NCBI RefSeq assembly: GCF_024758725.1
Contig: NZ_CP096972.1
Span: 2,834,001 to 2,898,000, forward strand
DNA length: 64,000 nt
Direction of reading: 5' to 3'
DNA from: Sphingomonas sp. SUN039
GTDB lineage: Bacteria > Pseudomonadota > Alphaproteobacteria > Sphingomonadales > Sphingomonadaceae
Numbering within the stretch: the stretch's first letter is position 1; every line of letters begins with the position of its first letter. The notes below the pieces were generated by a model that had not been told where the DNA came from, searched no databases, and was given only the letters and a program-made list of their open reading frames with translations. Positions 39,589 to 56,414 of this stretch are shown here, piece by piece. The position numbers and the translations under genes were made by a program.

Positions 39589-41655
39589 CTAGAGCGCGAA
39601 CCGTGCACTGACGCGGACGTCGCGACCGGCAAGCGGCGCAAAGTCCTTCAGAAAGCTCGCATGGCGGCGCGCCTCGGCGTTGAAGATGTTGCTGGCCGAC
39701 AGCACGACGCTCGTCCGGTTGCCTTTGCCGAGCGGGTGCCAGGCCAGACTGGCATTGACCATCGTATAGCCCCTGGTCGGGGTTTCGAAGGCGGCGACGC
39801 GGTTCTGGTCGGCGGTCCATTCGACTTCGGCGCGCGCATCGATCCGGTCCGACTGCGCCTCCAGCCCGCCGAGCAGGCGCAATGGGGGGATGCGCGGGAC
39901 GGGGCCACCACCCGATACGGTCGCGCGGGTATAATCGCCGACGCCGTCGAGATTGATCGCATAGTCGCCGAGCTGGGCGAGCTTGACCGACGCCTCGCCC
40001 TCGAAGCCGTAATAGGTTGCCGAAGCCTGGTTGAACTGGAACACCGGCAGGTCGTCCTGCACCGCGCCGGTCTGAACCTCGTAAATATAGTTGTCGAACC
40101 AGTTGTGATAGGCGGCGAGCGAGAAGCTGTAGCCAGTGCCTTCGCCGCGCAAGGTCGCCTCGATACCGTTGCTGGTTTCCTTCCTGAAATTCGGATTGCC
40201 GATCTCGAAGGCCTGGGTGCCCGCGTGCGGGCCATTAGGGAAGAGCTCCTCGGCCCCCGGCGCGCGTTCGGTGTGCGATCCCGACAGGCCGATCTTCAAA
40301 CTCGAACTCAGAGCATAGCTGGCACCGAGCGAGCCTGAAAAGGCATCGAAGCTGCGGATATATGCAGGATTACCCAGCCTGGCACTGGCGTCGGCCTGGA
40401 TTTTTGTGTGCTCGTAGCGCGCGCCGAGTTCGGCCTTGAACGGCCCCAGATCGAACGATTGCAGCGTGAACAGGCCCGTCTGGTTGGTGGTGTTTTTTGG
40501 GACGAACGCTTCGTCGCCGATCACATCGAAGTCGCGAATGGCGACCTGGATGCCGCTCGCCCCCTGCCACGCGCCGCGCTTGGCCTGGACGAATTCCAGA
40601 CGTCCTTCCCAGCCCTTGTTGAGGAAGGTCGTGCCGATGGCCCCAGTGTCGTCGATCTCCGAATGCTTGTAATCGGCAAAGCTGCCGCGGAAGCGGATCT
40701 TGTCGAGGAAGGCACCACCGATATTCACTTCGGCACGCCCGTCGACGCGGGTCTGCTGGACCGCGAGCCGGACCTGTTCGGTCTCGATAGCGGGATCGAG
40801 CGAATAGCGCGGCGGCACGCCGTAGAGGCTGTCGTAATGGCTGACATTGAAGCCCAGATTGCCGCCGTCGGTGATCAGCGCCGCGCCTGCGCCGACGTCC
40901 CAAGTTCGTGCGGCACTATTGGGCAATTTGCCGCGCAACGATGCCAGGCCGCGAATATCGGCATCGGGGTTGGCAAGCGCCTGGGCCCGCAATGCCGGCG
41001 ACAGGATGAACCCGCCGGTGTCGAGGTTGCCGGTCTTGGCGTAGCTGCCATCGACATGGAAAACGAGCTTGCCCGCAACGGGCACGTCGATGGTGCCGCT
41101 CGCCGAACGTTCTTCCGATGCCGATCCGTAACTGGCGATGCCGTCTATGTGCACGACCTCGTCAGGCACCTTGCGCGGGATGCGGCTGTCGATAACGTTG
41201 ACGACACCGCCGATGGCCGACGAGCCGAACAACAGCGCAGCGGGGCCGCGGAGCACTTCGATACGGTCGGCAGTCAGCTGGTTGATGACGACGGCGTGAT
41301 CGACGCTGGTGTTCGACACATCGATGCTGCCGATACCGTCGGTCAGCACGCGGACACGCTCGCCCTGGAACCCGCGCAGGATCGGGCGCGAGGCGTTGGG
41401 GCCGAACGAGGTCGCCGATACCCCGGGCTGGTGCGCCAGCGTGTCGCCGATGGTGGGGCGAAGGTCGCGCATGAGTTCGGTGCCGGTAACAACCGATGTC
41501 CCCGACAACACATCGGCCCGGTCGCGCTCGAACGGGGCAGTGACAATGATTTCGACGGGGGTTTCGGCGTGATTCGCGGGCGGCGTATCCTCGGCCACCG
41601 CGGGCGCGGCGAACGCGACAAGAGCAGCAGAGGCGAGCAGGGCGGATTTACGCAT
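39589..41655 (-). CDS. TonB-dependent receptor, ZnuD-like
   Basis: 688 residues from ATG 'MRKSALLASAALVAFAAPAVAED', with AGGAG 7 bases upstream; a longer frame lacks support. TonB box-like 'EIIVTAPFERDRAD', plug with 'IGDTLAHQPGVSATSFGPNASRPILRGFQGERVRVLTDGIGSIDVSNTSVDHAV', and the C-terminal 'NIFNAEARRHASFLKDFAPLAGRDVRVSARFAL', a signature of the ZnuD/zinc-receptor group. An inverted repeat TGATAC-ATC-GTATCA lies 39 bases upstream and may bind Zur or another regulator. Zinc as ligand is inferred from family resemblance. Confidence 0.9.
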   Translation of the reverse strand: MRKSALLASAALVAFAAPAVAEDTPPANHAETPVEIIVTAPFERDRADVLSGTSVVTGTELMRDLRPTIGDTLAHQPGVSATSFGPNASRPILRGFQGERVRVLTDGIGSIDVSNTSVDHAVVINQLTADRIEVLRGPAALLFGSSAIGGVVNVIDSRIPRKVPDEVVHIDGIASYGSASEERSASGTIDVPVAGKLVFHVDGSYAKTGNLDTGGFILSPALRAQALANPDADIRGLASLRGKLPNSAARTWDVGAGAALITDGGNLGFNVSHYDSLYGVPPRYSLDPAIETEQVRLAVQQTRVDGRAEVNIGGAFLDKIRFRGSFADYKHSEIDDTGAIGTTFLNKGWEGRLEFVQAKRGAWQGASGIQVAIRDFDVIGDEAFVPKNTTNQTGLFTLQSFDLGPFKAELGARYEHTKIQADASARLGNPAYIRSFDAFSGSLGASYALSSSLKIGLSGSHTERAPGAEELFPNGPHAGTQAFEIGNPNFRKETSNGIEATLRGEGTGYSFSLAAYHNWFDNYIYEVQTGAVQDDLPVFQFNQASATYYGFEGEASVKLAQLGDYAINLDGVGDYTRATVSGGGPVPRIPPLRLLGGLEAQSDRIDARAEVEWTADQNRVAAFETPTRGYTMVNASLAWHPLGKGNRTSVVLSASNIFNAEARRHASFLKDFAPLAGRDVRVSARFAL

Positions 41656-41693
41656 GGAAACTCCTGGAAATGCTGCACCGCCCCTAAACTTGA

Positions 41694-41708
41694 TGATACA
41701 TCGTATCA
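41694..41708. promoter_or_regulatory. Inverted repeat TGATAC-N3-GTATCA upstream of the ZnuD-like receptor
   Basis: TGATACATCGTATCA is a perfect inverted repeat between the RidA gene and the receptor start. It is a candidate operator for a metal-responsive repressor such as Zur. The half-site is the same as in the efflux TetR operator at 28789, but the spacer is 3 rather than 6 bases. Confidence 0.5.
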
Positions 41709-41772
41709 AGTGTGTAATGTACGCGGTCGGACGGCTGAAACGCACGTCCGACCGCATAGGACTGGGGAGCAG

Positions 41773-42276
41773 CTATTTTCCCTTGGGCGCCTTCGCTGCA
41801 ATCGCTTCGATCTCGATCAGGAAATTGGGTCCGGCGAGCGCAGCGACCTGCACCGTCGAGCGCGCAACCAGATTGGGGTTTTCCGCCGTCCCGAAAAACT
41901 CCTTATAGCCGGCGTTGAAGCCCATGAAATCCATTTTGCCGCCAAGCTTCGGATCGCCGGCGACAAACACCGTCAGCTTGACGATGTCGGACATCGAATA
42001 GCCGAGCTTGGCGAGCGCCGCCTTGATCTTGTTGAACGTGCTTATCGTCTGCGTTTTGGTGTCGCCATAATCCTCCATCGTTGCGGTCTTGCCCTCGACG
42101 ATCGGATTGGCGAGCTGGCCGCTGAGCAGTACGGTTTCGGCACCCGGAGGGATGGTGACGCCGCCCAGGATGAGCGCGGGTGGCGGGTTAGTGTGGCGCA
42201 CGATCGGTGCGGCGAGCGCCGACGTGCCGCACAAGGCGGTCGCAGCCAGGACAGATAATTTGAACAACGAAGTCAT
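41773..42276 (-). CDS. RidA-family protein with signal peptide (exported imine deaminase-like)
   Basis: 167 residues from ATG 'MTSLFKLSVLAATALCGTSALAAPIV', a clear Sec signal, preceded by GGAGAGAAGG. The YjgF/YER057c/UK114 fold is seen: 'AETVLLSGQLANPI', 'TKTQTISTFNKIKAALAKLGYSMSDIVKLTVFVAGDPK', 'NPNLVARSTVQVAALAGPNFLIEIEAIA', in which the 'RSTVQVAALAGPxxLIEIEAIA' block includes the active-site Arg and Glu. Cytoplasmic RidA hydrolyses reactive enamines/imines; export suggests a partner enzyme in the periplasm, probably the Tat-exported amine oxidase encoded 220 bases upstream. Confidence 0.9.
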   Translation of the reverse strand: MTSLFKLSVLAATALCGTSALAAPIVRHTNPPPALILGGVTIPPGAETVLLSGQLANPIVEGKTATMEDYGDTKTQTISTFNKIKAALAKLGYSMSDIVKLTVFVAGDPKLGGKMDFMGFNAGYKEFFGTAENPNLVARSTVQVAALAGPNFLIEIEAIAAKAPKGK

Positions 42277-42332
42277 TGCCTTCTCTCCTATGATCGAAAA
42301 GGGGGCGGACCCTGCGGCCCGCCCCGGTCGTC

Positions 42333-42426
42333 GCGGCACAAGTCGGAACTTGAAGTTCACCCGGCCATAATAATAGCCACCGTTGATCCCATAGGGGCTG
42401 AACGTCAGCGGCGCGTCGAGCACATT
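42333..42426 (-). pseudogene. 3' remnant of a TonB-dependent receptor gene
   Basis: On the minus strand, in the gap between the amine oxidase and RidA genes, the frame reads 'SSGNVLDAPLTFSPYGINGGYYYGRVNFKF' and then runs on without a stop toward RidA. 'SPYGINGGYYYGRVNFKF' is the typical last beta-strand of a TonB receptor, including the C-terminal aromatic, but nothing of the remaining ~700 residues is present. It looks like the end of a receptor gene that was deleted together with its stop codon. Confidence 0.6.
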
Positions 42427-42498
42427 GCCACTTGATGCCCGGCTGTGTTGGTTCGTTCCTGCGAAACCACCGGAAAGTATCGGTTCTGTCCTCCTGTC

Positions 42499-44091
42499 TC
42501 AGGCCGCGAGGCGGCTCGGTTCGGTCGGCGCGCGGGCGCTGACCTGTTTGGCGAGTGCGGCAACGGCGGCATGGGCGGACTGGATGCCGCCCTCTTGCCA
42601 GCCGGGCGTCTGGCTGAGCGCGGCGCTGGCAAAGAACACGCGGCCGTCGGGCTGGCACAGCAATTTGAATTCGGCGCTGTCGTTGTGCGATTCCTGCGGT
42701 CCCTGCTGGTTCGGATTCCAGTTCGGCCAGGGGCCGAGGCTGTAGGGCACTTTCTTCCAGTTGACCGCGAGCGGATTGACGCAATCCTTGCCGTGGCCGG
42801 GATGTGCTTTGTCGATCGCGGCGCGCGCCATCGCGATCTGTTCGGCGATCGGGCGCTTGACGAACTTCGCACCCGCCGCGCCCGAGCTATAGCAACCGAG
42901 GATCATGCCGCGTTCGCTGTGCAGACCCCAGGACGGATACCAGATCAGCGACGTCTCGCCGCCAACGAAGCTGATCCCGCCATAGATTTGCTCGCGTTCC
43001 CAAAAGCGCGGGGCTTCGAATGCGACCTTGTTGGAATTGTCATAGACCACGCTGGCGATGGCGGTCGCGACCGGTTTGGCGAAATTGCTGTCGATCTTTG
43101 CCAGTACCGGGAAGGGGATGGTGCAGACGCAATAATCGGCCTTGAGCGTGCGGCTCGCCCCGCTCGCCTTGTCGAGGAAGACGATCTCGACACCCTTGGA
43201 ATCGTGGCGGATGCGCTGGACTTCGGCCCCCCGGATCGCGCGGCGCTTCAGATTGCGTTCGATGCCGACGCTGATCTGGTCCATGCCGCCGACCGGCTGG
43301 AACATCGTCGCCTGCATGTAGAGCTGGTCTTCGAACAAGGTGGAACGGAGCTGGTCGTTGGCGAGCAAAGTGCCCAGCCGTGTAGGTTCGGGCGGCTCTT
43401 CGAAGGTCAGCACCCCGGGTGCCTTGCCGAAGCCCGACCTGACGGTGCCCTTGAAATTCCCCTTCTCGTCGAGATCGCCGTAGAAGTTGAGGAACGGCAG
43501 CAGTTTCGACTTGTCCTCGGGCGTCAGTGCCTGATCGAGCGACCCCTGATTGATCGCTTTCGCCAGCAATTCTGAAATATGACCGCGGGTGTCGTTGATC
43601 GCGGTCCGCATCCGCAATTTGTCGCCGTTGTTGGCAACGACATAGGCCGAGCGGCTCGAATTGACCTCGACCTCGAGAGGCACTCCGAACTTGCGCGCAT
43701 AGCCGAGGATGCCTTGGTGGAAACTGGGCAACCGCGCGGGTCCAGCATTGAAATATACGCCGTCGGAGAATTTGGCGGTCTGGGTTTCCTCACCGATCAT
43801 CTCGATCTTGTCGCCGTCGCGTACCGTCCATGCACGCCCGCCGACGCGCTGGCGCGCTTCGAGAACGGTCACCGAAAATCCGCGTTCTTCAAGCTCGTGC
43901 GCGGCAACAAGTCCCGCGATCCCGGCCCCAAGCACGACGACCGATTTGCCGCCGCCGAACCCTGCACCGGTATCGGGCAGCGGCGCGGCATTCGCGACAC
44001 CGAACATCCCCATCGCCTGCATCGCACTGGCTGTCGCGGCGACGCCCCCGGTCTTTCCCAGAGCGTCGAGCACTGCGCGGCGTGTAATCAT
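42499..44091 (-). CDS. Tat-exported flavin monoamine/L-amino acid oxidase
   Basis: 530 residues. The N-terminus 'MITRRAVLDALGKTGGVAATASAM' is a twin-arginine signal. FAD-binding 'VVVLGAGIAGLVAAHELEERGFSVTVLEARQRVGGRAWTVRDG' at about 51-92; substrate domain with 'GPARLPSFHQGILGYARKFGVPLEV'; C-terminal flavin contact 'GRVFFASAALSQTPGWQEGGIQSAHAAVAALAKQV'. This family oxidises amines or L-amino acids to imines with release of H2O2. Its product would be the substrate of the exported RidA encoded downstream on the same strand. A GCAAT-N5-ATTGC site lies in the promoter gap, with an Lrp gene next upstream. Confidence 0.9.
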   Translation of the reverse strand: MITRRAVLDALGKTGGVAATASAMQAMGMFGVANAAPLPDTGAGFGGGKSVVVLGAGIAGLVAAHELEERGFSVTVLEARQRVGGRAWTVRDGDKIEMIGEETQTAKFSDGVYFNAGPARLPSFHQGILGYARKFGVPLEVEVNSSRSAYVVANNGDKLRMRTAINDTRGHISELLAKAINQGSLDQALTPEDKSKLLPFLNFYGDLDEKGNFKGTVRSGFGKAPGVLTFEEPPEPTRLGTLLANDQLRSTLFEDQLYMQATMFQPVGGMDQISVGIERNLKRRAIRGAEVQRIRHDSKGVEIVFLDKASGASRTLKADYCVCTIPFPVLAKIDSNFAKPVATAIASVVYDNSNKVAFEAPRFWEREQIYGGISFVGGETSLIWYPSWGLHSERGMILGCYSSGAAGAKFVKRPIAEQIAMARAAIDKAHPGHGKDCVNPLAVNWKKVPYSLGPWPNWNPNQQGPQESHNDSAEFKLLCQPDGRVFFASAALSQTPGWQEGGIQSAHAAVAALAKQVSARAPTEPSRLAA

Positions 44092-44200
44092 GCAAATCCC
44101 CCGATCTCGACCCGTGTGCGATCAGGACATGCTCCCCAGTGCCGTCTTGCTATCGATTGCGGCTAGCGTGCGGTAAAAGGGCCGGAAAATGGCGAATACG

Positions 44201-44215
44201 GCAATTGTTTATTGC
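44201..44215. promoter_or_regulatory. Candidate Lrp-type site before the amine oxidase gene
   Basis: GCAATTGTTTATTGC is a 15-base interrupted palindrome (GCAAT-N5-ATTGC, AT-rich centre), the size of a classic Lrp/AsnC half-site pair, in the 221-base gap between the Lrp and amine oxidase genes. Confidence 0.55.
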
Positions 44216-44312
44216 AACGGGCCTAAACTCTGCGCGATTTGTGCGGCAGAACGCCGGTTTTTGACGAATTCATACAAGAAATGGGCAAATAAACGCCGCG
44301 TCGCGCGCGATT

Positions 44313-44804
44313 TTAGCGCCGGGTCAGAATGGCAGGCGGATTGAGGCGATTCGCGACTTGGCGCAGCACGAAACTGCTGCGGATGCGCGCGACGTGCGGC
44401 AGGATCGACAGCTCGCGCCGATAAATCGCGTCATAGTCGTTGAACGAGCTGACATGGATAAGCAGCAGGAAGTCGGTGTCGCCCGAGACGAAGCCGCAAT
44501 AGGAGATGGCCGTGCTTTTGAGCACCTCGCGCTCGAAATCGACGAGCACGTTTTCTGCCTGGGAGGTCAATTCGACCGAGACCACCACGACACCACTGAA
44601 CCCCAGCCGCGAAGGGTCGAGGCGCACCTCGTACCCAGAAATAACCCCCGCTTCCTCCATCGACTTTCGCCGCCGCGCGACCGAGCTGCTCGACAGGTTG
44701 ATGCGCTCGCCGATCGACACGTCGGAGGCACGGGCATCGTCAGACAAGGCGGAAATGATTCGATAGTCGGCGTCATCCAGCAGGACCGCGCGAGATTCCT
44801 TCAT
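44313..44804 (-). CDS. Lrp/AsnC family transcriptional regulator
   Basis: 163 residues. HTH 'LDDADYRIISALSDDARASDVSIGERINLSSSSVARRRKSMEEAGVISGYEVRLDPSRLGF' and the RAM/AsnC effector domain 'VVVSVELTSQAENVLVDFEREVLKSTAISYCGFVSGDTDFLLLIHVSSFNDYDAIYRRELSILPHVARIRSSFVLR'. It is flanked by the amine oxidase (same strand) and a TonB receptor (divergent), so it probably senses an amino acid and governs this catabolic locus. Confidence 0.93.
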   Translation of the reverse strand: MKESRAVLLDDADYRIISALSDDARASDVSIGERINLSSSSVARRRKSMEEAGVISGYEVRLDPSRLGFSGVVVVSVELTSQAENVLVDFEREVLKSTAISYCGFVSGDTDFLLLIHVSSFNDYDAIYRRELSILPHVARIRSSFVLRQVANRLNPPAILTRR

Positions 44805-44872
44805 GAAAACCCCTTTTCATGCCAGAATTCAGCGCAAACTCCCCTTAATTCTTCTTATTCTGCTCAACACGC

Positions 44873-44887
44873 GCAAGGCTTTCTTGC
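44873..44887. promoter_or_regulatory. Candidate Lrp-type site in the lrp/TonB receptor gap
   Basis: GCAAGGCTTTCTTGC is GCAAG-N5-CTTGC, similar in form to the 44201 site (GCAAk-N5-mTTGC). It stands 69 bases upstream of lrp and 110 upstream of the TonB receptor start. Confidence 0.5.
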
Positions 44888-44996
44888 TAGCTTGCATTTG
44901 TCAAGACGGCTGCCGCGTTCTGGGGAGGACGCGCCGGATGGCCAAGGACACAATGAGGATCCCGAGCAAGGCGAACTGCCAGCCAAGGGGGACTTC

Positions 44997-47993
44997 ATGG
45001 CCATTTCACATCGCGCGCTGCTTGCCGGACTCGGTATCGTTTGGGCCGCGCCGGGTCTCGCCCAGCAGGCACCGGTTCCGGTCCCTGAAACAGCAGAGAC
45101 GGAAACCGCCGAAGCGGGCGGCGAAATCGTTGTTACCGGTACGCGCATCGTCCGCGACGGGTATAGCGCGCCGACCCCGGTCAGCGTCATCAGCACCAAG
45201 GAACTCCAGGCCGAAGCTCCGGCCAACATCTCCGATTTCGTCAACACGCTGCCCGCCGTGCGTGGCAGCGGGACGGCGGCGACCAGCAACGGATCGTTGA
45301 GCAACGGCGCTGCCGGAATCAATACCGTCAATCTCCGCAATCTGGGTGCCCAGCGCACATTGGTGCTGTTCGACGGACAGCGCTCGGTCGCCTCTGCCAC
45401 AACCGGCACGGTCGACGTTAACACCTTCCCTCAAGCGCTGATCGAACGGGTCGAAGTCGTAACCGGCGGAGCGTCTTCGGCCTATGGATCGGATGCGGTG
45501 TCAGGCGTCGTCAACTTCATCCTCGACAAGAAATTTACGGGGCTGAAGGGCGAATATGAATACGGGGTCACGACCTATGGCGATGGCGCCAATCACAAGA
45601 TTTCGGTGACGGGCGGCCTGCCGTTCGCCGGGGGCAAGGGCCATATCCTGCTCAGCGGCGAGGTGTTTACGCAAAAGGGCATCCAGACGATCAACCGTGC
45701 GTGGAACAACTCGGGGTTCTTCCAGATCGACAATCCTGCCTATGTCGCGGCAAGCTGCACCGACGCGCTGGCCTCGACAATCTGCTATCCGGCGCGCCTC
45801 ATCTAGGCCGGCATCGGCACGAGCCAGTTCACGCCGGGCGGCCTCATCAGCACCGGGCCGTTCCGGGGCACCTATTTCGGGACGATCGACCCGTCGACCG
45901 GGCGGGCCACGGTCAACCAGCTCGCCTTCGGTCCGACCAACGGCCAGTGGATGGTCGGCGGCGACTACAACATCACCAGCGCGGGCCACCGGGGGAGCGC
46001 GACGCTCCTCCCGGCGGAGAAGCGGTCGAGTGTGTTCGGACGATTGAGTTACGAATTTTCGCCTGCCTTCGAACTCTATGGCCAGTTCGCGTACAGCACA
46101 TACCGCGGCCAGAGCTATTACCAGCAGACGCCGACGACCGGCACCACGATCCAGGTCGCGCCGACGACGGCCAACGGCAACCTTATCAACGCCTATCTGC
46201 CCGCCGCGTTCATCGCCAGCGTCAACGCCTATAACGCCAGCCAGCCGACAGCGGCAACCAGGGTTTCGACGGTCGCACTGGGCACCAGCAATATCGACAT
46301 CCCGCCACAGGGCAGCGACAACACCCGCGAGGTGTATCGCTACGTCATCGGCGGCAGCGGCAAGTTCGAAGCGATCGGGGCCGAATGGAGCTGGGACGCT
46401 TATTACCAAAAGGGTATCGTCAAAACCAACGAGTTGCTGACCAATGCGTGGAACCTGGCGCGCATGACACTGGCGACCGATGCGGTGTTCGCGCCTGCCG
46501 GGAACGCCATCGGCGTGGCTGCCGGGACCATCGTCTGCCGTTCGACGCTGACCGCGCCGACCAATGGCTGCGTCCCGCTCAACCGGCTCGGTATCGGCGT
46601 CGCGAGTCAGGCGGCGATCAATTACGTCTTGTACAATGGCCAGCAGCCGCTTCGCACCCAGTCGCTGACGCAGGATGTGGCCGCGCTTAATTTCTCGACC
46701 AACAACCTGTTCAACATCTGGGCGGGGCCGGTCTCGCTCGCCTTCGGCGCGGAGTATCGCAAGGAGGAAGTCGATGGCTTCGTCGATCCGCTGTTCCAGC
46801 CGATCGTGGCCAATGGCGTCACCACCGGCACCTGGATTTACGGCAATTACCTGCCGACCAAGGGGCAGTACAACGTCAAGGAAGCGTTCGTGGAAACCGT
46901 TGTGCCACTCTTCAAGGGCATGGATTTCAACGGCGCGTTCCGCGTGACCAACTATTCGACATCGGGCACGGTGACGACGTGGAAAGCGGGCCTCACCTGG
47001 CAGATGATCGACGACATCAAGCTGCGCGGCACCATTTCACGCGACATCCGCGCGCCGAATCTGGGCGAGTTGTTCGCGCCGGGTGTCGGGCGCACCAACA
47101 CCGTCAACGTGCCGCTGGCCAACGGCACCGTTCGCGCCGACCAGTTCAACGAATCGACTGTCGGCAATGCGGCGCTCGTGCCCGAAGTGGCCAAGACCTA
47201 TGGCGCGGGGGTCATCCTGACACCACGTTTCCTGCCGGGATTTGCGCTGTCGGTCGATTATTTCGACATCACGCTGAGTGGTGCCATCTCGTCGCTCACC
47301 GCGCAGACGCTGATCGACCAGTGCTATACGCTCAACCTCGCCAGTGCCTGCTCGTTCATTTCGACGACCGGCGGGCGCGGCGTGACGACGCCGGGGCTGC
47401 TGGTCACCAGCATCGAGATCAAACCGATCAATTTCGTCAGCATCAAGACGCGCGGCATCGACATCGAGGCGAGCTATCGCAAACAGATCGGCCCGGGCAC
47501 GCTCGCGCTGCGCGCCCTCGCCTCGAACGCGATCAGCCTGTACACCAACAACGGCGTCGATGTGCCGACCGAGGCGGCGGGCCAGAACGGTGGCGGGCTG
47601 CCCAAATGGACCTATCGCGTGTCGGCCGGATACGACTTCGACTCCGGACTCGGCTTTCAGGTCATCGGTCGCGGGGTCAGCAGCGGCGTCTATGACAACA
47701 GCTATGTCGTGTGCAGCACCGACTGCCCGGTCTCGACGGTCGCCAATCGCACGGTAAACCAGAACCGGATCGCGGGCACCTTCTACACCGATTTCAACAT
47801 CAACTATTCGTTCAAGATCGACAATGCGAAGGGACAGGTGTTTCTGGCGGTCAAGAACGTCTTCAACGTCGATCCGGCGCTGGTCGGCAACGGGCCGACC
47901 GGCAACAACACGCCCGCCTATCCGCAGACCAACCGGCTGCTCTACGATGTGCTGGGGCGCGTGTTCCGCCTCGGTGTCCGCTTCAGCCTCTAG
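44997..47993 (+). pseudogene. TonB-dependent receptor interrupted by a single in-frame amber codon
   Basis: One continuous frame of 998 codons, start ATG after AAGGGGGAC, with TAG at 45804-45806 (codon 270) as the only interruption. The first part has a signal peptide ('WAAPGLAQQ'), a TonB box region 'EIVVTGTRIVRDGYSAPTPVSVI' and a full plug ('NLRNLGAQRTLVLFDGQRSV...YGSDAVSGVVNFILDKKFTGLKGEYEYG'). After the TAG the same frame continues as normal barrel (AGIGTSQFTPGGLIS...) to the C-terminal 'FRLGVRFSL'. The context 'ATC TAG GCC' suggests a CAG to TAG change. Either a recent nonsense mutation, a sequencing error or suppressed read-through. First gene of a unit with an M20 hydrolase and a second receptor. 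Confidence 0.85.
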
Positions 47994-48028
47994 TCCACCC
48001 GCCCAAGCCGCCGTCAAGGAGAGATCCC

Positions 48029-49621
48029 ATGCCGAACCGCACCTGCCGTTACGCCAAGGCCCTGTTGCTTGCCTCTGCCACGATCGTTGCCAGCCCCGGC
48101 TTTGCCCAGGCCGACCCCGCGCTCAAGACCGAAGCTGCAGCACTTGTCGATGCCAAGGCCAAGCTCGTCCAGGAGATGGTCGATTCGGTGTTCAGCTTTG
48201 CCGAGCCCGGTTTCCAGGAGTTCAAGACGCAGGAATATCTGACCGCGATTCTCGCCAAGAACGGGTTCAAGATCACCAAGGGAGTCGCGGGCATCCCGAG
48301 CGCCTGGACCGCGACTTGGGGCGAAGGCGGCCCGCTGATTGCGCTCGGCAGCGATGTCGATTGCCTGCTCGGCGTTTCGCAATATCCCGGCATCACCTCG
48401 CTGAAGCCGATGGTCGAGGGTGCGCCGGGACATGGCGAGGGGCATAATTCGGGGATGCCGCTGATCATCGCCGCCGCGCTCGCCGCCAAGGAAACGATGA
48501 TCAAGCACGGGATCAAGGGGCGGCTGATGCTGTGGCCCGGCGTCGCCGAAGAACTGCTCGCCACCAAAGCCTATTATGTCCGCGAGGGCCTGTTCAAGGG
48601 CGTCGATGCGAACATCTTCACCCATGTCTCGAGCGATTTTTCGACCAGCTGGGGGCTGGGCGGCAGCAACGCGCTGGTGTCGGTCGAATATACGTTCACC
48701 GGATCGACCTCGCACGCCGCGGGGAACCCGTGGGACGGGCGGTCGGCGCTCGACGCGGTCGAGATCATGAACGTCGCGCTCAATTACCGCCGCGAACATC
48801 TGCCGCTCAGCCAGCGCATGCACTATGTCATCTCGAACGGCGGCGGGCAGCCCAATGTCGTCCCCGACAGGGCGGCGGTGTGGTATTATTTCCGCCAGAA
48901 CGGGTTCCAGCAGGTCCGAGACCTGTACGAAATCGGCAACACGGTGGCCGAATCCGCCGCCAAGGCAACCGAGACGACGGTTACGCGCCAAGTGCTTGGT
49001 TATGCCGCACCGAACTATGGCAACAAGCCGATGGCCGATGCCGCCTATGCCAATATCAAGGCGGTCGGCATGCCGAAATGGACCGACGACGACCAGGCGT
49101 TCACCAAGGCCGTACAGACCGGACTCAAGCGCACGATCAAACCGCTGGCCACGACGATCGGTGAAATGAACGGACCGACGAACGAACGCGTGCCGACGGG
49201 CGGCGGGTCGGACGATATCGGTGACATCATGTGGAACGTGCCGACGATCACGATCCGTTACCCGTCGAACATCCCGAGCATGATCGGCCACCACAAGACA
49301 AGCGCCATCGCGATGGCGACGCCCATCGCCCACAAGGGCGCGGTCGCAGGGGCAAAGGCGGTGGCGATGACCGTGCTCGACCTGATGACCACGCCCAAGC
49401 TGATCGCCGATGCGAAGGATTATCAGCAGAACGTCCAGCTGAAAGACCAGAAATACGATCCGGTGATCACCGCATCGGACAAGCCCGCGATCTGGCTCAA
49501 TACCGAAACGATGCGGCGGTTGCGTCCTTCGATGGAAAAATTCTATTACGATCCGAAGAAATATCCGAGCTATCTGGCCCAGCTCGGCATTGCCTATCCG
49601 GGGACGGCACCGACCAAATAG
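48029..49621 (+). CDS. Exported M20-family amidohydrolase/peptidase (AbgB-like)
   Basis: 530 residues from ATG 'MPNRTCRYAKALLLASATIVASPGFAQADP' with AAGGAGAG upstream and a Sec signal. M20 features: 'LIALGSDVDCLLGVSQYPG' (metal Asp region), 'GAPGHGEGHNSGMPLIIAAALAAKETM' where the usual GHxCGH is GHGEGH, 'LWPGVAEELLATKAYYVREGLFKGVD' (Glu-Glu), a dimerisation domain 'VEYTFTGSTSHAAGNPWDGRSALDAVEIMNVALNYRREH', and 'HHKTSAIAMATPIAHKGAVAGAKAVAMTVLDL'. It should cleave an amide or peptide bond of an N-acyl/aminoacyl compound in the periplasm. Follows the interrupted TonB receptor. Confidence 0.9.
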   Translation: MPNRTCRYAKALLLASATIVASPGFAQADPALKTEAAALVDAKAKLVQEMVDSVFSFAEPGFQEFKTQEYLTAILAKNGFKITKGVAGIPSAWTATWGEGGPLIALGSDVDCLLGVSQYPGITSLKPMVEGAPGHGEGHNSGMPLIIAAALAAKETMIKHGIKGRLMLWPGVAEELLATKAYYVREGLFKGVDANIFTHVSSDFSTSWGLGGSNALVSVEYTFTGSTSHAAGNPWDGRSALDAVEIMNVALNYRREHLPLSQRMHYVISNGGGQPNVVPDRAAVWYYFRQNGFQQVRDLYEIGNTVAESAAKATETTVTRQVLGYAAPNYGNKPMADAAYANIKAVGMPKWTDDDQAFTKAVQTGLKRTIKPLATTIGEMNGPTNERVPTGGGSDDIGDIMWNVPTITIRYPSNIPSMIGHHKTSAIAMATPIAHKGAVAGAKAVAMTVLDLMTTPKLIADAKDYQQNVQLKDQKYDPVITASDKPAIWLNTETMRRLRPSMEKFYYDPKKYPSYLAQLGIAYPGTAPTK

Positions 49622-49631
49622 GGGACTGGTT

Positions 49632-51560: not shown

Positions 51561-51731
51561 TAGCTGCTTTTTGCTATTTGGGGCCGCACGCCCTATACCG
51601 GTTGTGCTGAACGTCGCCTGCGACGGATATCGGGCCGCTTACGCCCCCCTTTGTCCCTGAACTTGCTTCACGACGCCGGGATGGCCCGCCTTTGGACCAT
51701 GCCCGTCAATTCGGACTAAGGAATGCCCGAT

Positions 51732-51938
51732 ATGATCACCGGAACCGTTAAATTCTTCAATGCCGACAAGGGCTATGGCTTCATCGCGCCGGAAGGCGGC
51801 GGGGGCGATGCATTTGTGCACATCTCGGCCGTCGAGCGTGCCGGCATGCGCACCCTCGATAAGGACCAGCGCGTCACCTACGAGCTCGAAACCGACAAGC
51901 GCGGCAAGACCTCGGCTGTGAACCTGCAGTCGGCCTAA
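51732..51938 (+). CDS. Cold shock protein (CspA family)
   Basis: 68 residues from ATG 51732, 9 bases after AAGGA; an ATG at 51723 would sit directly on the RBS. One cold-shock domain with RNP1 'KGYGFIAP' and RNP2 'DAFVHISAV'. An RNA-binding chaperone melting secondary structure at low temperature. The 171 bases upstream could contain a structured 5' leader. A strong terminator follows. Confidence 0.95.
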   Translation: MITGTVKFFNADKGYGFIAPEGGGGDAFVHISAVERAGMRTLDKDQRVTYELETDKRGKTSAVNLQSA

Positions 51939-51949
51939 CAAGCTACCGG

Positions 51950-51992
51950 CGGCGGCGGCACGGGGCTTACCCTGCCGCCGCCGTTTTCTTTT
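51950..51992 (+). terminator. Rho-independent terminator of the cold shock gene
   Basis: CGGCGGCGGCA (51950-51960) pairs perfectly with TGCCGCCGCCG (51973-51983) across a 12-base loop, followed by TTTTCTTTT. Confidence 0.95.
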
Positions 51993-52023
51993 CTACGTCT
52001 TACTAAAAGGATTCGATCCAGCC

Positions 52024-52200
52024 ATGAGCCCTCTCGAATTCTACCGCACCCAGGCGACCAAGGCCGCGACCGATGCCGCCGCCGCCACCCTCGACAATGT
52101 CCGCGACCGCTGCCTGCGCGCTGCCGCCGCATGGGACGTGATGGCCGAGCGCATCGAGCGCACCGAAGAAATGCGCGCGGGGCGCCCGGGGAGCCGGTGA
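52024..52200 (+). CDS. Small hypothetical protein
   Basis: 58 residues, 'MSPLEFYRTQATKAATDAAA' to 'EEMRAGRPGSR'. It is helical and alanine/arginine-rich with heptad-like spacing ('LDNVRDRCLRAAAAWDVMAERIERTEEM'). ATG 28 bases after the cold-shock terminator's T-run with AAAAGGA upstream. Third-position GC is strong, supporting coding. Function unknown. Confidence 0.7.
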   Translation: MSPLEFYRTQATKAATDAAAATLDNVRDRCLRAAAAWDVMAERIERTEEMRAGRPGSR

Positions 52201-52224
52201 TTCCGGCTTCGATTCTCGCTCTTC

Positions 52225-52303
52225 TTCGAGCGTAAGCGAGAAGCCCGGCCGAGCGCGAGCGAGGTCTTCCACCGCAAGCCGCGCTTTCTCGCTAACGCTC
52301 GAA
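52225..52303. repeat. Imperfect inverted repeat pair
   Basis: TTCGAGCGTAAGCGAGAA (52225-52242) and TTCTCGCTAACGCTCGAA (52286-52303) are inverted copies with one mismatch, separated by 43 bases, between the small ORF and the convergent metallohydrolase gene. Confidence 0.75.
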
Positions 52304-52339
52304 TGAGCACCTCGCTGTCGCTCGGCGAAGAAAAACGTC

Positions 52340-53554
52340 TCAACGCAGCGCTGTAACCGCAGGCGATTTCAGGCAGCTTGCCAGATCGCCCTGAGGCTTG
52401 GCCGGAATCGGTTTCGCATAGGGCGCAACCTCGACCGGCACCCCGATCCCCGACGTCGCAAACCCGGTCTGACCCCGGCACTTCATCACTTCGGCGAGCA
52501 GTTTCGGCGGCGTGTCGTACGCCTCGTAGCTGAGCCGGAACGTGCCCCAGTGCATGCCGAGGCCACGCGCCGCGCCGAGCCGGTCGAACACTTCGGCGGC
52601 GTCGATGGGGCCGATATGGCTGCCGATGCCCATTTGCCCGGGCACGAAGCGGAACGCGCCGATGGGGATGAGCGCGAGGCGCACGGGGCCGAGCTTTGCG
52701 GCCTCGCGCGGCCATTGCCCGTCGCCCATGCCGGTATCGCCCGCGAAGAACAAGTTGCCGCCCTTGGGCAGCACGACCGTGAAACTCGACCACAGCGCCC
52801 GGTTGCGGTCGGCGAACCAGCGGCTGCCCCAATGATGGTTGCGGGTGACGACGACTTCCGCTTTCAATTTCGGCTCACATTTAACCTGAGGGTAACCCGG
52901 TGGCACAAAGCACCGATTCACGACGCCCCGGCGTTCGCCCCAGTCGAGCGCAACCGCCTGTGCGCCGATGCTGCGGATCAGTGCATCATTCCCCAAGCTC
53001 GTCACGATGAGCGGGCTGTCGCGGTCCCAAAGCCGCTTGAGTGTTCCCAAATCCATGTGGTCGTAATGATTATGGCTGATGACGACGAGGTCGATAGGCG
53101 GCAAATCCTCGAAACGGATGCCGGGTTCCGCCACCCGGCGCGGGCCGAAGCCGAAGGGGCCTGCAGTCGGCCCCCAGATCGGATCGGTCAGGATGTTCAG
53201 CCCATTGGTCTGGATCAGCCAGGTTGCATGACCGACCCAGGTCGCCACCATCCGTTCGCCCTCGACGCGGCGCTCGGGCTTGGCAGGCGTGACATCGACC
53301 TTGTCGGGCCACGGCGGGCGTTCGTCGGTGCCGAACAGATAGCGGATCAGGAAATTACCGCGACTGCGCCCGCCCGGCGGGGCCAGCGTATCGTCGCCAT
53401 CGGGATTGAAGAACCGCGCGCCGTCGTAGTGCGCGCTGACCGGCCCCTGATAATAGATGCGGTCGAGGAATTTGGGGACGATGACGATCGCGAGGCACAG
53501 CGCCACCGCCAGCCACAACAGGCCGCGCCCCACATATACTATTGCGCGCCGCAT
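52340..53554 (-). CDS. Membrane-anchored MBL-fold metallohydrolase (NAPE-PLD/RomA-like)
   Basis: 404 residues from ATG 'MRRAIVYVGRGLLWLAVALCLAIVIVPKFL', a TM anchor. Metal motif 'VVISHNHYDHMDLGTL' (HxHxDH as HNHYDH), 'VTRNHHWGSR', 'LFFAGDTGMGDG' (Asp), 'GMHWGTFRLSYE' (His). Similar to NAPE-PLD-like hydrolases of phosphodiesters or lipids. Start codons of this and the divergent serine hydrolase are only 23 bases apart. A longer upstream frame extends into the neighbour and is not credited. Confidence 0.88.
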   Translation of the reverse strand: MRRAIVYVGRGLLWLAVALCLAIVIVPKFLDRIYYQGPVSAHYDGARFFNPDGDDTLAPPGGRSRGNFLIRYLFGTDERPPWPDKVDVTPAKPERRVEGERMVATWVGHATWLIQTNGLNILTDPIWGPTAGPFGFGPRRVAEPGIRFEDLPPIDLVVISHNHYDHMDLGTLKRLWDRDSPLIVTSLGNDALIRSIGAQAVALDWGERRGVVNRCFVPPGYPQVKCEPKLKAEVVVTRNHHWGSRWFADRNRALWSSFTVVLPKGGNLFFAGDTGMGDGQWPREAAKLGPVRLALIPIGAFRFVPGQMGIGSHIGPIDAAEVFDRLGAARGLGMHWGTFRLSYEAYDTPPKLLAEVMKCRGQTGFATSGIGVPVEVAPYAKPIPAKPQGDLASCLKSPAVTALR

Positions 53555-53577
53555 CCCGCCTCGCCACTCTGACTGTG

Positions 53578-54735
53578 ATGACAGCGATAGCGTTTCTGTT
53601 TGCAACGGCAAGCGTCGCGACCGCGCCTGTCGCCACCGCGCGGGCCGAGTTCAATGCGCAGCGCATCACGCACGCAACTGCGACGGGGATCGCCGACAAG
53701 ACAACATCGCGCGCCGCGACTGTCGACGATCCGGTGCGCGTCGCCAGCGTGTCGAAAATGGTCGTCGCGCTGGGGGTGATGCGGCTGGTCGAGGCAGGCA
53801 AGCTCGACCTCGACCGCGATGTGTCGGCCTATCTCGGCTGGACGCTGCGCAATCCCGACTTCCCCGAAGTGCCGATGACGCTGCGGATGCTGTTGTCGCA
53901 CACCTCGGGCCTGCGCGACGATGCCGATTACGCGATCCCGCTCGGGGATAGCGTCCGCGCCCGGCTGGGCGACCGGCGGGCGTGGGACGTTGAGCACCAT
54001 CCCGGCAACTGGTTCCGCTACAGCAATCTCAACTTCCCGGTGATTGCCAGCGTGATGGAGGCGGCGACCGGCGAGCGGTTCGACCGGTTGATGGCGCGGC
54101 TGGTGTTCAAGCCGCTGAAGATCGACGCGTGCTACAACTGGACAATGTGCAGCGACGCCAAGCTCGCACGCAAGGTCGTGCTTTACGACGCAGGCGGGCC
54201 GGTGCGGACCGATGGCTTTGCGACCTTGCGCCCCGACTGCCCGGTTCGGCTGTTGCAAGCGACGACGCCCTGCGACCTCAACGCCTACACCCCCGGCAGC
54301 AATGGTGCGCTGTTCAGCCCGCAGGGGGGCATGCGGATTTCGGCGCGCGATCTGGCACGGATCGGGCAGCTGTTTGTAAAGCGCGGGGCCGGCTTTCTCA
54401 AACCCGCCTCGCTCGCCGAAATGGCGAAGCCGCACTGGACGTTCGACGGCGGCAATGGCGATACCGAGGGCGGATTTTATTGCAGCTATGGCCTCGCCGT
54501 GCAGATCCTCGCCACGCCCAACATGCCCGATTGCCATGACGACCTGTTCGGCGACGGCGTGCGCCGCATCGGCCATGCGGGCGAGGCGTACGGGCTGCGC
54601 TCGGGGCTGTGGATCGACAGGAAGCGCGGCAAGGGCGTGGCGTTCTTTGCTACCGCCGTGCCCGACGACGCGACCGGCAAAGGCGCGCATTCGGCGTTTA
54701 CGCCGGTCGAGGAGCAATTAGCCAAGGGGAAATGA
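53578..54735 (+). CDS. Exported serine hydrolase, beta-lactamase class C/D-aminopeptidase family
   Basis: 385 residues from ATG 'MTAIAFLFATASVATAPVATARAEF' (signal peptide). 'RVASVSKMVVALGVMRLVEAGKLDLDRDV' contains SxxK (S-V-S-K), 'WFRYSNLNFPVIASVMEAATG' contains YxN (Y-S-N), and 'GHAGEAYGLRSGLWID' is at the H/K-x-G position. These enzymes act on D-alanyl or ester bonds. Overlaps the following D-aminoacylase-like gene (ATGA), so the two are co-translated. Confidence 0.9.
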   Translation: MTAIAFLFATASVATAPVATARAEFNAQRITHATATGIADKTTSRAATVDDPVRVASVSKMVVALGVMRLVEAGKLDLDRDVSAYLGWTLRNPDFPEVPMTLRMLLSHTSGLRDDADYAIPLGDSVRARLGDRRAWDVEHHPGNWFRYSNLNFPVIASVMEAATGERFDRLMARLVFKPLKIDACYNWTMCSDAKLARKVVLYDAGGPVRTDGFATLRPDCPVRLLQATTPCDLNAYTPGSNGALFSPQGGMRISARDLARIGQLFVKRGAGFLKPASLAEMAKPHWTFDGGNGDTEGGFYCSYGLAVQILATPNMPDCHDDLFGDGVRRIGHAGEAYGLRSGLWIDRKRGKGVAFFATAVPDDATGKGAHSAFTPVEEQLAKGK

Positions 54736-56414
54736 CCATGCGCCGGATACCGATCGTCGCCGCATTGCTGCTCACGGGCGCCGCGCCCCCGCCCGCCTAT
54801 GACCTTATCGTCCGGGGCGGGACGATCTATGACGGCACCGGCGGCACGCCATACAAGGGCGATGTTGCGATCAAGGGCGACCGGATCGTCGCGGTCGGCA
54901 AAGTACGCGGCACGGCCAAACGCACAGTCGATGCAAAGGGCCTCGCCGTCGCACCCGGCTTCATCAACATGCTCAGCTGGGCCAATGAATCGCTGATCGC
55001 CGACGGGCGCGGGATGAGCGACACCAAACAAGGCGTCACTCTCGAAGTGATGGGCGAAGGCTCGTCGATGGGACCGCTCAACCCCGAGATGAAAGCCAAC
55101 GCCACCCGGCGGCAGGGGGACATCAAATTCCCCATCGGCTGGACCAGCCTGCGCCAGTATCAGGACTGGCTGACGATGCGCGGCATCACCCCCAATATCG
55201 CCAGCTACGTCGGTGCGACGACGGTGCGGATCAACGTGCTCGGCGAAAACGATGTCGATCCCACCCCCGCGCAGCTCAGGCGGATGCAGGCGCTTGTCCG
55301 CACCGCGATGAACGAGGGCGCGCTGGGCGTCGGCTCCAGCCTGATCTACGCCCCCGCCAGCTATGCCGAGACGCCCGAGCTGATCGCGCTGATGAAGGCG
55401 GCGGGATCGTGCGGCGGCAGCTATATCAGCCATATCCGCGACGAGGGGCCGCGCCTGATCGAAGCGATCGACGAGCTGGTCGAGATCGCCGAAAAATCGG
55501 GCGCACCCGCCGAAATCTATCACTTCAAACAATCGGGCCGCGCCAATTGGGGCAAGATCGACGCCGCCATCGCGCGGGTCGAGGCGGCGCGGGCGCGCGG
55601 CCTGAAAATCACCGCCGACATGTACACCTATCCGGCCAGCTCGACCGGCTTCGACGCGGCGATGCCGCTGTGGATTCAGGAAGGCGGGATCGAGGCGTGG
55701 GTCGCGCGGTTGAAGCAGCCCGAATTGCGCGCCCGGGCGCTGACCGAAATGCGCGAGGGCAAGGTCGGCGAGAACACCAGCCTCGTCGTCAACGAACCCG
55801 ACAAGGTCACGCTGCTCGCCTTCAAGACCGCCGCCCTGCGCCCGCTGGTCGGCAAGACACTGGGCGACGTCGCGCGCGAACGCGGCCAGCGGCCGGAAGA
55901 GGTGATGGCCGACCTGATCGTCGCCGACGGCACGCGCATCCAGGTCGCCTATGTCTCGATGCGCCCGGAAAACGTCGCGCGCGAAACCGCGCTGCCGTGG
56001 ATGAGCTTCGGCTCGGACGCATCTAGCCAGGCCAATGAGGGCGTGTTCATGCTGTCGAGCACGCACCCGCGCGCTTACGGCAATTTCGCGCGGGTGCTGG
56101 GCAAATACGCCCGCGACGAAAAGACGCTGACCTTGGCGGATGCGGTGCGGCGGCTGTCGGGGCTTCCGGCAGAGAATCTGCGGATTGCACGGCGCGGGAC
56201 ACTGAAAGTCGGCAATTACGCCGATATGGCGATCTTCGATCCCAAGACGGTCGGCGATACCGCGACCTTTGCCAAACCCCAGCAATATGCCGTCGGTATG
56301 CGCCACGTCTTCGTCAACGGGGTGCAGGTGCTGAAGGATGGCGAGCACACCGGTGCCAAGCCCGGCCGTGTCGTTGCCGGACCGGGCACGGGCAAATGCG
56401 TGCCAGTCGGTTAG
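54732..56414 (+). CDS. Exported D-aminoacylase/N-acyl-D-amino-acid deacylase-like amidohydrolase
   Basis: 560 residues starting in ATGA overlap with AAGGGGAA upstream. Signal 'PIVAALLLTGAAPPP'. Amidohydrolase layout: 'YDLIVRGGTIYDGTGGTPYKGDVAIKGDRIVAVG', 'GGSYISHIRDEG' (metal His), 'EIYHFKQSG' (metal His), 'MSFGSDASSQANEG' (Asp). The normal HxH after the first strand is missing: 'VAPGFINMLSWANESLI' replaces 'PGFIDxHTH', and 'GVTLEVMGEGSS' replaces the 'GxTxxxxGNCG' Cys segment. It may therefore use a single metal. Substrate not determined; N-acyl amino acids are the family standard. Confidence 0.88.
   Translation: MTMRRIPIVAALLLTGAAPPPAYDLIVRGGTIYDGTGGTPYKGDVAIKGDRIVAVGKVRGTAKRTVDAKGLAVAPGFINMLSWANESLIADGRGMSDTKQGVTLEVMGEGSSMGPLNPEMKANATRRQGDIKFPIGWTSLRQYQDWLTMRGITPNIASYVGATTVRINVLGENDVDPTPAQLRRMQALVRTAMNEGALGVGSSLIYAPASYAETPELIALMKAAGSCGGSYISHIRDEGPRLIEAIDELVEIAEKSGAPAEIYHFKQSGRANWGKIDAAIARVEAARARGLKITADMYTYPASSTGFDAAMPLWIQEGGIEAWVARLKQPELRARALTEMREGKVGENTSLVVNEPDKVTLLAFKTAALRPLVGKTLGDVARERGQRPEEVMADLIVADGTRIQVAYVSMRPENVARETALPWMSFGSDASSQANEGVFMLSSTHPRAYGNFARVLGKYARDEKTLTLADAVRRLSGLPAENLRIARRGTLKVGNYADMAIFDPKTVGDTATFAKPQQYAVGMRHVFVNGVQVLKDGEHTGAKPGRVVAGPGTGKCVPVG

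Follow-up and report, generated by a model that had tools for sequence, protein, structure and literature searches.

The genome of Sphingomonas sp. SUN039 (G000; one contig of 3.53 Mb) encodes, side by side on the minus strand, an oxidase and a member of the Rid family, both with predicted export signals. The two genes lie in a stretch of 64,000 nucleotides (the window), within a segment (39589-56414) that a preliminary description took for one locus of periplasmic amine and N-acyl amino acid use. Judged by homology and conservation, the oxidase is of the L-amino-acid oxidase (LAAO) type, the Rid protein is of the Rid3 type, and the pair is a cut-down form of a predicted operon that in relatives includes a putative outer-membrane uptake receptor. 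By the same reasoning the segment is not one conserved locus: it appears to hold a LAAO-Rid unit reduced by loss of its receptor, an Lrp-receptor-M20 module and a number of genes for which no close homologue stands beside the pair elsewhere. We put at about 0.7 the probability that the exported LAAO and the exported Rid3 protein act one after the other on imines of L-amino acids.

The oxidase belongs to Pfam family Amino_oxidase (PF01593; 5.8e-46). Its best sequence match in the PDB is the LAAO of Rhodococcus opacus (2jae; 270 bits, residues 46-518), a relation that spans the whole mature length. Among the best 60 of 115 matches listed, reconstructed animal LAAOs follow at 108 bits, an entry named merely ‘Amine oxidase’ (5ts5) at 81, LSD1 at 51 or less, putrescine oxidases at 47 or less, and entries for monoamine oxidase (MAO) and cyclohexylamine oxidase at 41 or less. 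The alignment with the R. opacus enzyme has 167 identities over 467 aligned positions and places Arg120, Trp455 and Trp498 opposite Arg83, Trp425 and Trp466 of the R. opacus chain: residues that we take to shape the substrate site, with the arginine presumably binding the substrate carboxylate. R120 and W498 are invariant in 15 aligned oxidase sequences, the window's included. The N-terminus reads MITRRAVL; the twin arginine is present in 13 of 15 aligned homologues (again counting the window) and replaced by KR in two, and the predicted signal would direct the enzyme to twin-arginine (Tat) export. The ‘amine’ oxidase of the preliminary description should thus read L-amino-acid oxidase. That the enzyme is nevertheless a true mono- or polyamine oxidase is very improbable: although the Pfam family spans both kinds and no NCBIfam model exceeded its cut-off among the best 25 listed, the difference between 270 bits for the R. 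opacus enzyme and the scores of the putrescine, monoamine and cyclohexylamine oxidases, together with the alignment of Arg120 to the LAAO arginine, speaks for the amino acid type. LAAO-like genes also occur in tandem: six genes or fragments lie within ∼10 kb on one contig of G111 (C55:54778-65189, covered in part by locus L056), and smaller arrays are found in G097 (C14) and G109 (C74).

The adjacent protein is a member of Pfam family Ribonuc_L-PSP (PF01042; 6.3e-19). Its closest PDB entries, PFL1385 (9bkc; 1.8e-28) and PSPTO3006 (9bka; 1.6e-27), are also its nearest characterised relatives, and both are Rid3 proteins; HI0719 (2.8e-11) and YjgF (1qu9; 1e-7) come after them. PFL_1385 and PSPTO_3006 reduce the formation of semicarbazone from LAAO-made imines, with five substrates tabulated (PMC5619798; this and other papers are cited here from extracts of their text). 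The score against the RidA subfamily model TIGR00004 is 54.4 bits, below the cut-off of 106.25. The predicted catalytic residues, Arg139 and Glu155, do not vary across 21 aligned sequences (window included); in YjgF they correspond to the ARS motif and to the leading Glu of EIEA, respectively. Rid3 proteins carry Ile in place of the Tyr of RidA (PMC4433059); among the printed RidA-type alignments only that with 1j7h spans this region, and it is ambiguous there.

Export of the Rid protein is predicted from its start, MTSLFKLSVLAATALCGTSALA followed by AP, which is of Sec type by eye and extends ∼21 residues beyond the N-terminus of Haemophilus HI0719 (Rid residue 27 aligns to residue 6). Export calls were made by eye and with a crude, uncalibrated hydrophobicity script for which the start codon was freely chosen. 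By these means a Sec-type start was found in all 28 intact Rid genes of a first set (window included; a homologue split over two frames, L080 in G035, was left uncounted) and in 72 of 80 genes of a second, overlapping set. The script itself had flagged all 80; eight (L091, L092, L095, L096, L101, L102, L105 and L119) were dropped on account of an internal or doubtful start. Three other Rid genes are present in the genome. Two are open frames of 127-128 aa whose Pfam match begins at profile position 5, which leaves no room for a signal; the third, with its start taken as MSSIETALAALN, has none. The window protein is a Rid3-type protein with a predicted Sec-type signal. In four loci (L077, L082, L084 and L085) two different Rid genes, each with a Sec-type start, stand in tandem beside the LAAO gene.

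The genes lie where the preliminary description placed them, and its central observation, a Tat-type oxidase adjacent to a Sec-type Rid protein, is confirmed: the two are separated by 222 bp. Absence of the pair from other genomes had been named in advance as one result that would refute its interpretation, and the genomes show the opposite. Two samples were searched: 118 relatives (oxidase E ≤ 1e-40, Rid E ≤ 1e-10) and 298 genomes of the family (oxidase E ≤ 1e-100, Rid E ≤ 1e-25, M20 hydrolase E ≤ 1e-140). Among the 118, the oxidase was found in 20 and Rid in 22, with all 20 oxidase genomes included in the 22. Among the 298, the oxidase was found in 25, Rid in 57 and both in 23 (Fisher 9e-17, kinship ignored); a Rid gene lies within 6 kb of 20 of the 29 oxidase genes, on the same strand in all 20. 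A further set of Rid loci from named genomes (the best 80 of 565 relatives) contains an oxidase in 53 instances, 46 on the strand of Rid and seven on the opposite strand. The 46 fall into three arrangements: oxidase-receptor-Rid (21, Sphingomonas ursincola, L092, among them), oxidase no more than 1 kb upstream (19, counting the broken locus L088; in some of the 19 a further gene occupies the gap) and oxidase just downstream (six).

The receptor of the first arrangement explains what remains in the window. Receptors in the 80 loci were sought with those of L062, L064 and the window as queries. In G007, G052 and G042 the oxidase and Rid genes are separated by a TonB receptor gene; Plug and TonB barrel domains were recognised by Pfam in each of three gap receptors scanned (L062, L064 and L246), and the gap receptors of G007 and G052 are among those with both. 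The gap in the window encodes, shortly before the Rid start, SGNVLDAPLTFSPYGINGGYYYGRVNFKF, which is identical at 28 of 29 positions to the C-terminus of the receptor in L089 (from a Sphingopyxis metagenome-assembled genome, MAG). A pattern made for the receptor C-terminus precedes Rid in all 21 oxidase-receptor-Rid loci, against 41 matches among 20000 random 225-bp segments drawn from the window; it detects no relic in ten other loci with an oxidase up to 1 kb upstream. Evidently the gap receptor of the window has been deleted except for its last 29 codons.

Some of this evidence tells against a working pathway. No oxidase was found in 27 of the 80 Rid loci (eight of the 80 have less than 4 kb upstream), and nine of the 29 oxidase genes have no Rid gene within 6 kb, some of them at contig ends; the link between the two genes is therefore strong, not obligatory. 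In G002, of the same genus, the LAAO is frame-broken and truncated, the receptor is gone and Rid is intact (L061/L088); by eye, the gap there holds degenerate text resembling a receptor relic. One receptor lost from the window, a second interrupted by a stop codon (below) and the broken oxidase of G002 point to decay in the genus. Taken to its end, this would make the pair a remnant that no longer serves any pathway, which we consider unlikely: both frames are open, and the Arg and Glu of Rid and Arg120 of the oxidase are kept. A receptor is also absent from other pairs (L098, L103, L113, L117 and L127), so that its loss appears to be tolerated.

Export-type starts on both proteins, together with conservation of the pair, make it natural to place both the formation of the imine and its hydrolysis in the periplasm, as first suggested. 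In such a scheme the pair, presumably co-transcribed, would work in two steps: the Tat-exported flavoenzyme would oxidise its L-amino acid substrate to an imino acid, with oxygen (giving peroxide) or the respiratory chain as possible electron acceptor, and the Sec-exported Rid3 protein would speed hydrolysis of the imine to 2-oxo acid and ammonia, keeping the reactive electrophile off envelope proteins. In relatives the TonB receptor encoded between the genes would carry the substrate through the outer membrane; because the window has lost all but 29 codons of it, the pair there would need another feed route.

A different product has been proposed for the similar gene cluster lao-cccA-ridA of Gluconacetobacter, whose lao transposon mutants lost indole-3-acetic acid (IAA) (PMC5053998). 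Conversion of tryptophan to indole-3-pyruvate, an auxin-type product, could be imagined for the window because the enzyme pair is the same. We nonetheless hold it to be distinctly unlikely, since the window pair has no adjoining cytochrome c gene. Oxidase-Rid gaps of 150-1000 bp were read for further frames in 15 loci. Eight of them hold an open reading frame with a CXXCH motif (L101, L102, L133, L135, L144, L151, L152 and L158; Pfam assigns the comparable frame of G088 to cytochrome c), and in all eight the oxidase best matches the L067 type, which is 37% identical to that of the window. No CXXCH frame is present in the window gap, the content of which is the receptor relic. L077, which represents the same place as L234, likewise has a cytochrome c gene separating Rid from LAAO. 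In L158 a receptor like that of the M20 module (54% and 41%, in two pieces) precedes the LAAO, CXXCH and Rid genes. The coordinates of the pair and its neighbours are listed in Table 1.

Table 1. Pair, receptor relic and neighbouring genes in the window; functions are predicted from homology.
Feature	Position	Strand	Basis or remark
LAAO-type flavoenzyme, 530 aa	42499-44091	-	Pfam PF01593, best PDB relative, twin-arginine start
Rid3-type protein, 167 aa	41773-42276	-	Pfam PF01042; predicted signal ∼42211-42276
TonB-dependent receptor relic, 29 codons	42346-42432	-	Identity to C-terminus of L089 receptor
Lrp/AsnC-family regulator	44313-44804	-	Pfam AsnC_trans_reg and helix-turn-helix (HTH); divergent from receptor 44997-47993
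TBDT2, TonB-dependent receptor of M20 module	44997-47993	+	Interrupted: in-frame TAG 45804-45806
M20-family hydrolase (amidohydrolase/dipeptidase type), Sec-type start	48029-49621	+	Pfam M20_dimer
TBDT1, ZnuD-like receptor	39589-41655	-	Downstream of Rid; best NCBIfam match ZnuD
Cold-shock-like gene	51723-51938	+	Between D-aminoacylase part and rest
Metallo-beta-lactamase (MBL)-fold gene	52340-53611	-	Between D-aminoacylase part and rest

A candidate source of substrate in the window is the module on the other side of the oxidase. The regulator Lrp, the receptor TBDT2 and the M20 hydrolase occur together in nine of 14 fetched stretches, all chosen for a match to one of the three (L216, L217, L219, L220, L221 and L247-L250), which is why we place Lrp with the M20 gene. 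The other five differ: L218 has another order, L222 no M20 gene and L246 no Lrp gene that could be found, while L235 and L237 have M20 alone (L237, like L236, comes from G111, and these were queried with window proteins only). The hydrolase scores 154.0 bits against NCBIfam model TIGR01891 (cut-off 153.75) and 68 bits against a Xaa-Arg dipeptidase in the PDB; the motifs GHGEGHN and G(V/I)AEE are present in all nine sequences inspected. Together, the regulator, receptor and exported hydrolase would free an amino acid from a peptide or an acyl conjugate. Supply of the pair through this module is a tentative proposal, to which we give rather less than an even chance. TBDT2 carries an in-frame stop, with which this supply too may have been lost. 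Eleven homologous frames in 10 loci are free of stops over the matched stretch, and the TAG may be an assembly error instead of a real stop.

A plausible link between the M20 module and the LAAO-Rid unit is drawn from one example beyond the window. L246, the wider stretch of L089, has receptor, M20, M20 (two genes in tandem), LAAO, receptor and Rid on one strand, all six confirmed by Pfam; since both modules stand in a single run, the locus supports the link. Across the 298 family genomes, M20 is present in 11 of the 25 that have the oxidase and in 30 of the 273 that lack it (p = 1e-4, uncorrected). Physical linkage is another matter, and here the counts weigh against coupling. M20 beside LAAO is rare: of the 11 genomes with both genes, seven have them on different contigs (by eye), and in the four where one contig holds both the distances are ∼4 kb (window), 51 kb (G052), 270 kb and 977 kb (G007). 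Only one of the 80 Rid loci includes M20. In four relatives at the level of the order (G088, G097, G109 and G111) M20 lies ∼15 kb from the oxidase; of the genes in between in G088, ten were assigned by Pfam, most of them to housekeeping families (MoaA-, RecR-, DnaX- and prephenate dehydratase-type), although they also include an M17 aminopeptidase and an amino-acid permease. The ∼15-kb spacing was considered as a wider cluster and is not counted in favour of the link. It is conceivable, if still doubtful, that sphingomonads possess a periplasmic nitrogen-harvesting line, in which a TonB receptor would import peptides or N-acyl amino acids for processing by exported M20 hydrolase, LAAO and Rid3: in one run in L246, split or decayed elsewhere, including the window.

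The remaining genes of the segment are TBDT1 and, to the right of the M20 hydrolase, a third receptor (TBDT3), the cold-shock-like gene, the MBL-fold gene (minus strand), a serine hydrolase and a D-aminoacylase-like gene. Homologues of every gene flanking the pair were sought, locus by locus (E ≤ 1e-5), in the 80 loci and in a second, overlapping set of 27 (Rid present in 23). TBDT3, the MBL gene and the serine hydrolase matched in none of the 80 and none of the 27. The D-aminoacylase-like gene gave weak or short matches in three loci of each set, none of them close (a close homologue being defined by identity of at least 45% over 100 aa); the best is 26% over 590 aa, in L103/L063, which are one and the same genome. 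The matches of TBDT1, in 12 of the 80 and five of the 27, are weak, of the kind shared by receptors in general, and in no case reach 45% over 100 aa. This receptor occurs in 48 of the 118 relatives, on a contig separate from the pair in G007, G017 and G052. Its best NCBIfam match is ZnuD at 378.8 bits (cut-off 950), which denotes relation short of membership. A palindrome, TTGATACGATGTATCATC, lies upstream of it (41656-41750), and similar motifs precede at least three of 19 TBDT1 orthologues inspected by eye (L255, L259 and L261); we read the palindrome as a putative site of metal-type control belonging to this gene itself. The frames of the serine hydrolase and D-aminoacylase-like gene overlap by four bases (54732-54735) if the latter starts at the ATG at 54732, a sign of translational coupling between the two.

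A single integrated locus across 39589-56414, in which the D-aminoacylase-like enzyme, the serine hydrolase and all receptors serve the utilisation of amines or N-acyl amino acids in the periplasm, is consequently hard to sustain. Its encoded proteins are exported or of the envelope and related in chemistry, and the M20 and LAAO modules are joined in one genome (L246); the search results for TBDT3, MBL, serine hydrolase, D-aminoacylase-like gene and TBDT1, the separate contigs of TBDT1, and the intervening cold-shock-like and MBL genes make it very improbable. Of the surrounding locus first described, the link of the M20 module to the pair thus gained one further example (L246), whereas the ZnuD-like receptor, TBDT3 and the MBL, serine hydrolase and D-aminoacylase-like genes were without a close homologue beside the pair in either locus set.

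Rid proteins are known mainly as cytoplasmic guards against imines. Here a conserved Rid3 protein with a predicted export signal is paired with an oxidase likewise marked for export, and a TonB receptor gene often separates the two, which suggests a need for imine control in the chemistry of the envelope as well. The little-understood Rid3 subfamily would gain a likely natural partner, open to direct assay, and the receptor relic illustrates how such operons can lose a part.

The preliminary description knew of no described system with this combination. For the core this fails, because the pairing of LAAO and Rid is already published for other organisms (PMC5053998, PMC10805672, PMC4433059): RidA and sometimes Rid3 genes cluster with amine oxidases dependent on flavin adenine dinucleotide (FAD) (PMC4433059), and a periplasmic LAAO-Rid complex has been described in Chlamydomonas (Vallon 1993, as cited in PMC5053998). 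In the open-licence literature we found no description of a TonB receptor with a LAAO-Rid pair, of a conserved Sec-type start in bacterial Rid3 proteins or of the joining of an M20 module to the pair.

Four known systems invite comparison. The ong cluster of Pseudoalteromonas unites a D-aminoacylase-like OngB, a deaminating enzyme OngC and a RidA-like OngD in one catabolic cluster; it differs in that the deaminating enzyme is compared with pyridoxal phosphate (PLP) enzymes and predicted to be cytoplasmic, and OngD has 127 aa (PMC9537276). A cluster of the ong type (D-aminoacylase and RidA) was rejected for the window, where the D-aminoacylase-like gene is of a kind unlinked to Rid elsewhere. 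Published Rid3 proteins share with the window protein the conserved Arg and the clustering with FAD amine oxidases, and are imine deaminases in vitro (PMC4433059, PMC5619798), an activity predicted for the window protein. Their export is undiscussed in the extracts: ‘periplasm’ has 0 matches in the text of either paper, ‘signal peptide’ 0 in PMC4433059 and ‘signal’ 0 in PMC5619798. Chlamydomonas LAO1 and LAO2/RidA resemble the window pair in that the genes are clustered and the proteins drawn in the periplasm (PMC10805672), but the system is eukaryotic, has no TonB receptor and would by inference lack Tat export. Finally, lao-cccA-ridA of G. diazotrophicus, an organisation said to be kept in Caulobacter and Xanthomonas, differs in its own cytochrome c gene, absent from the window cluster, and in its link to IAA, and the extracts mention neither a TonB receptor nor a signal on RidA; it is alike in that its LAAO, probably periplasmic, has a predicted Tat signal and a Rid gene in its cluster (PMC5053998), just as the window has adjacent LAAO and Rid genes on one strand.

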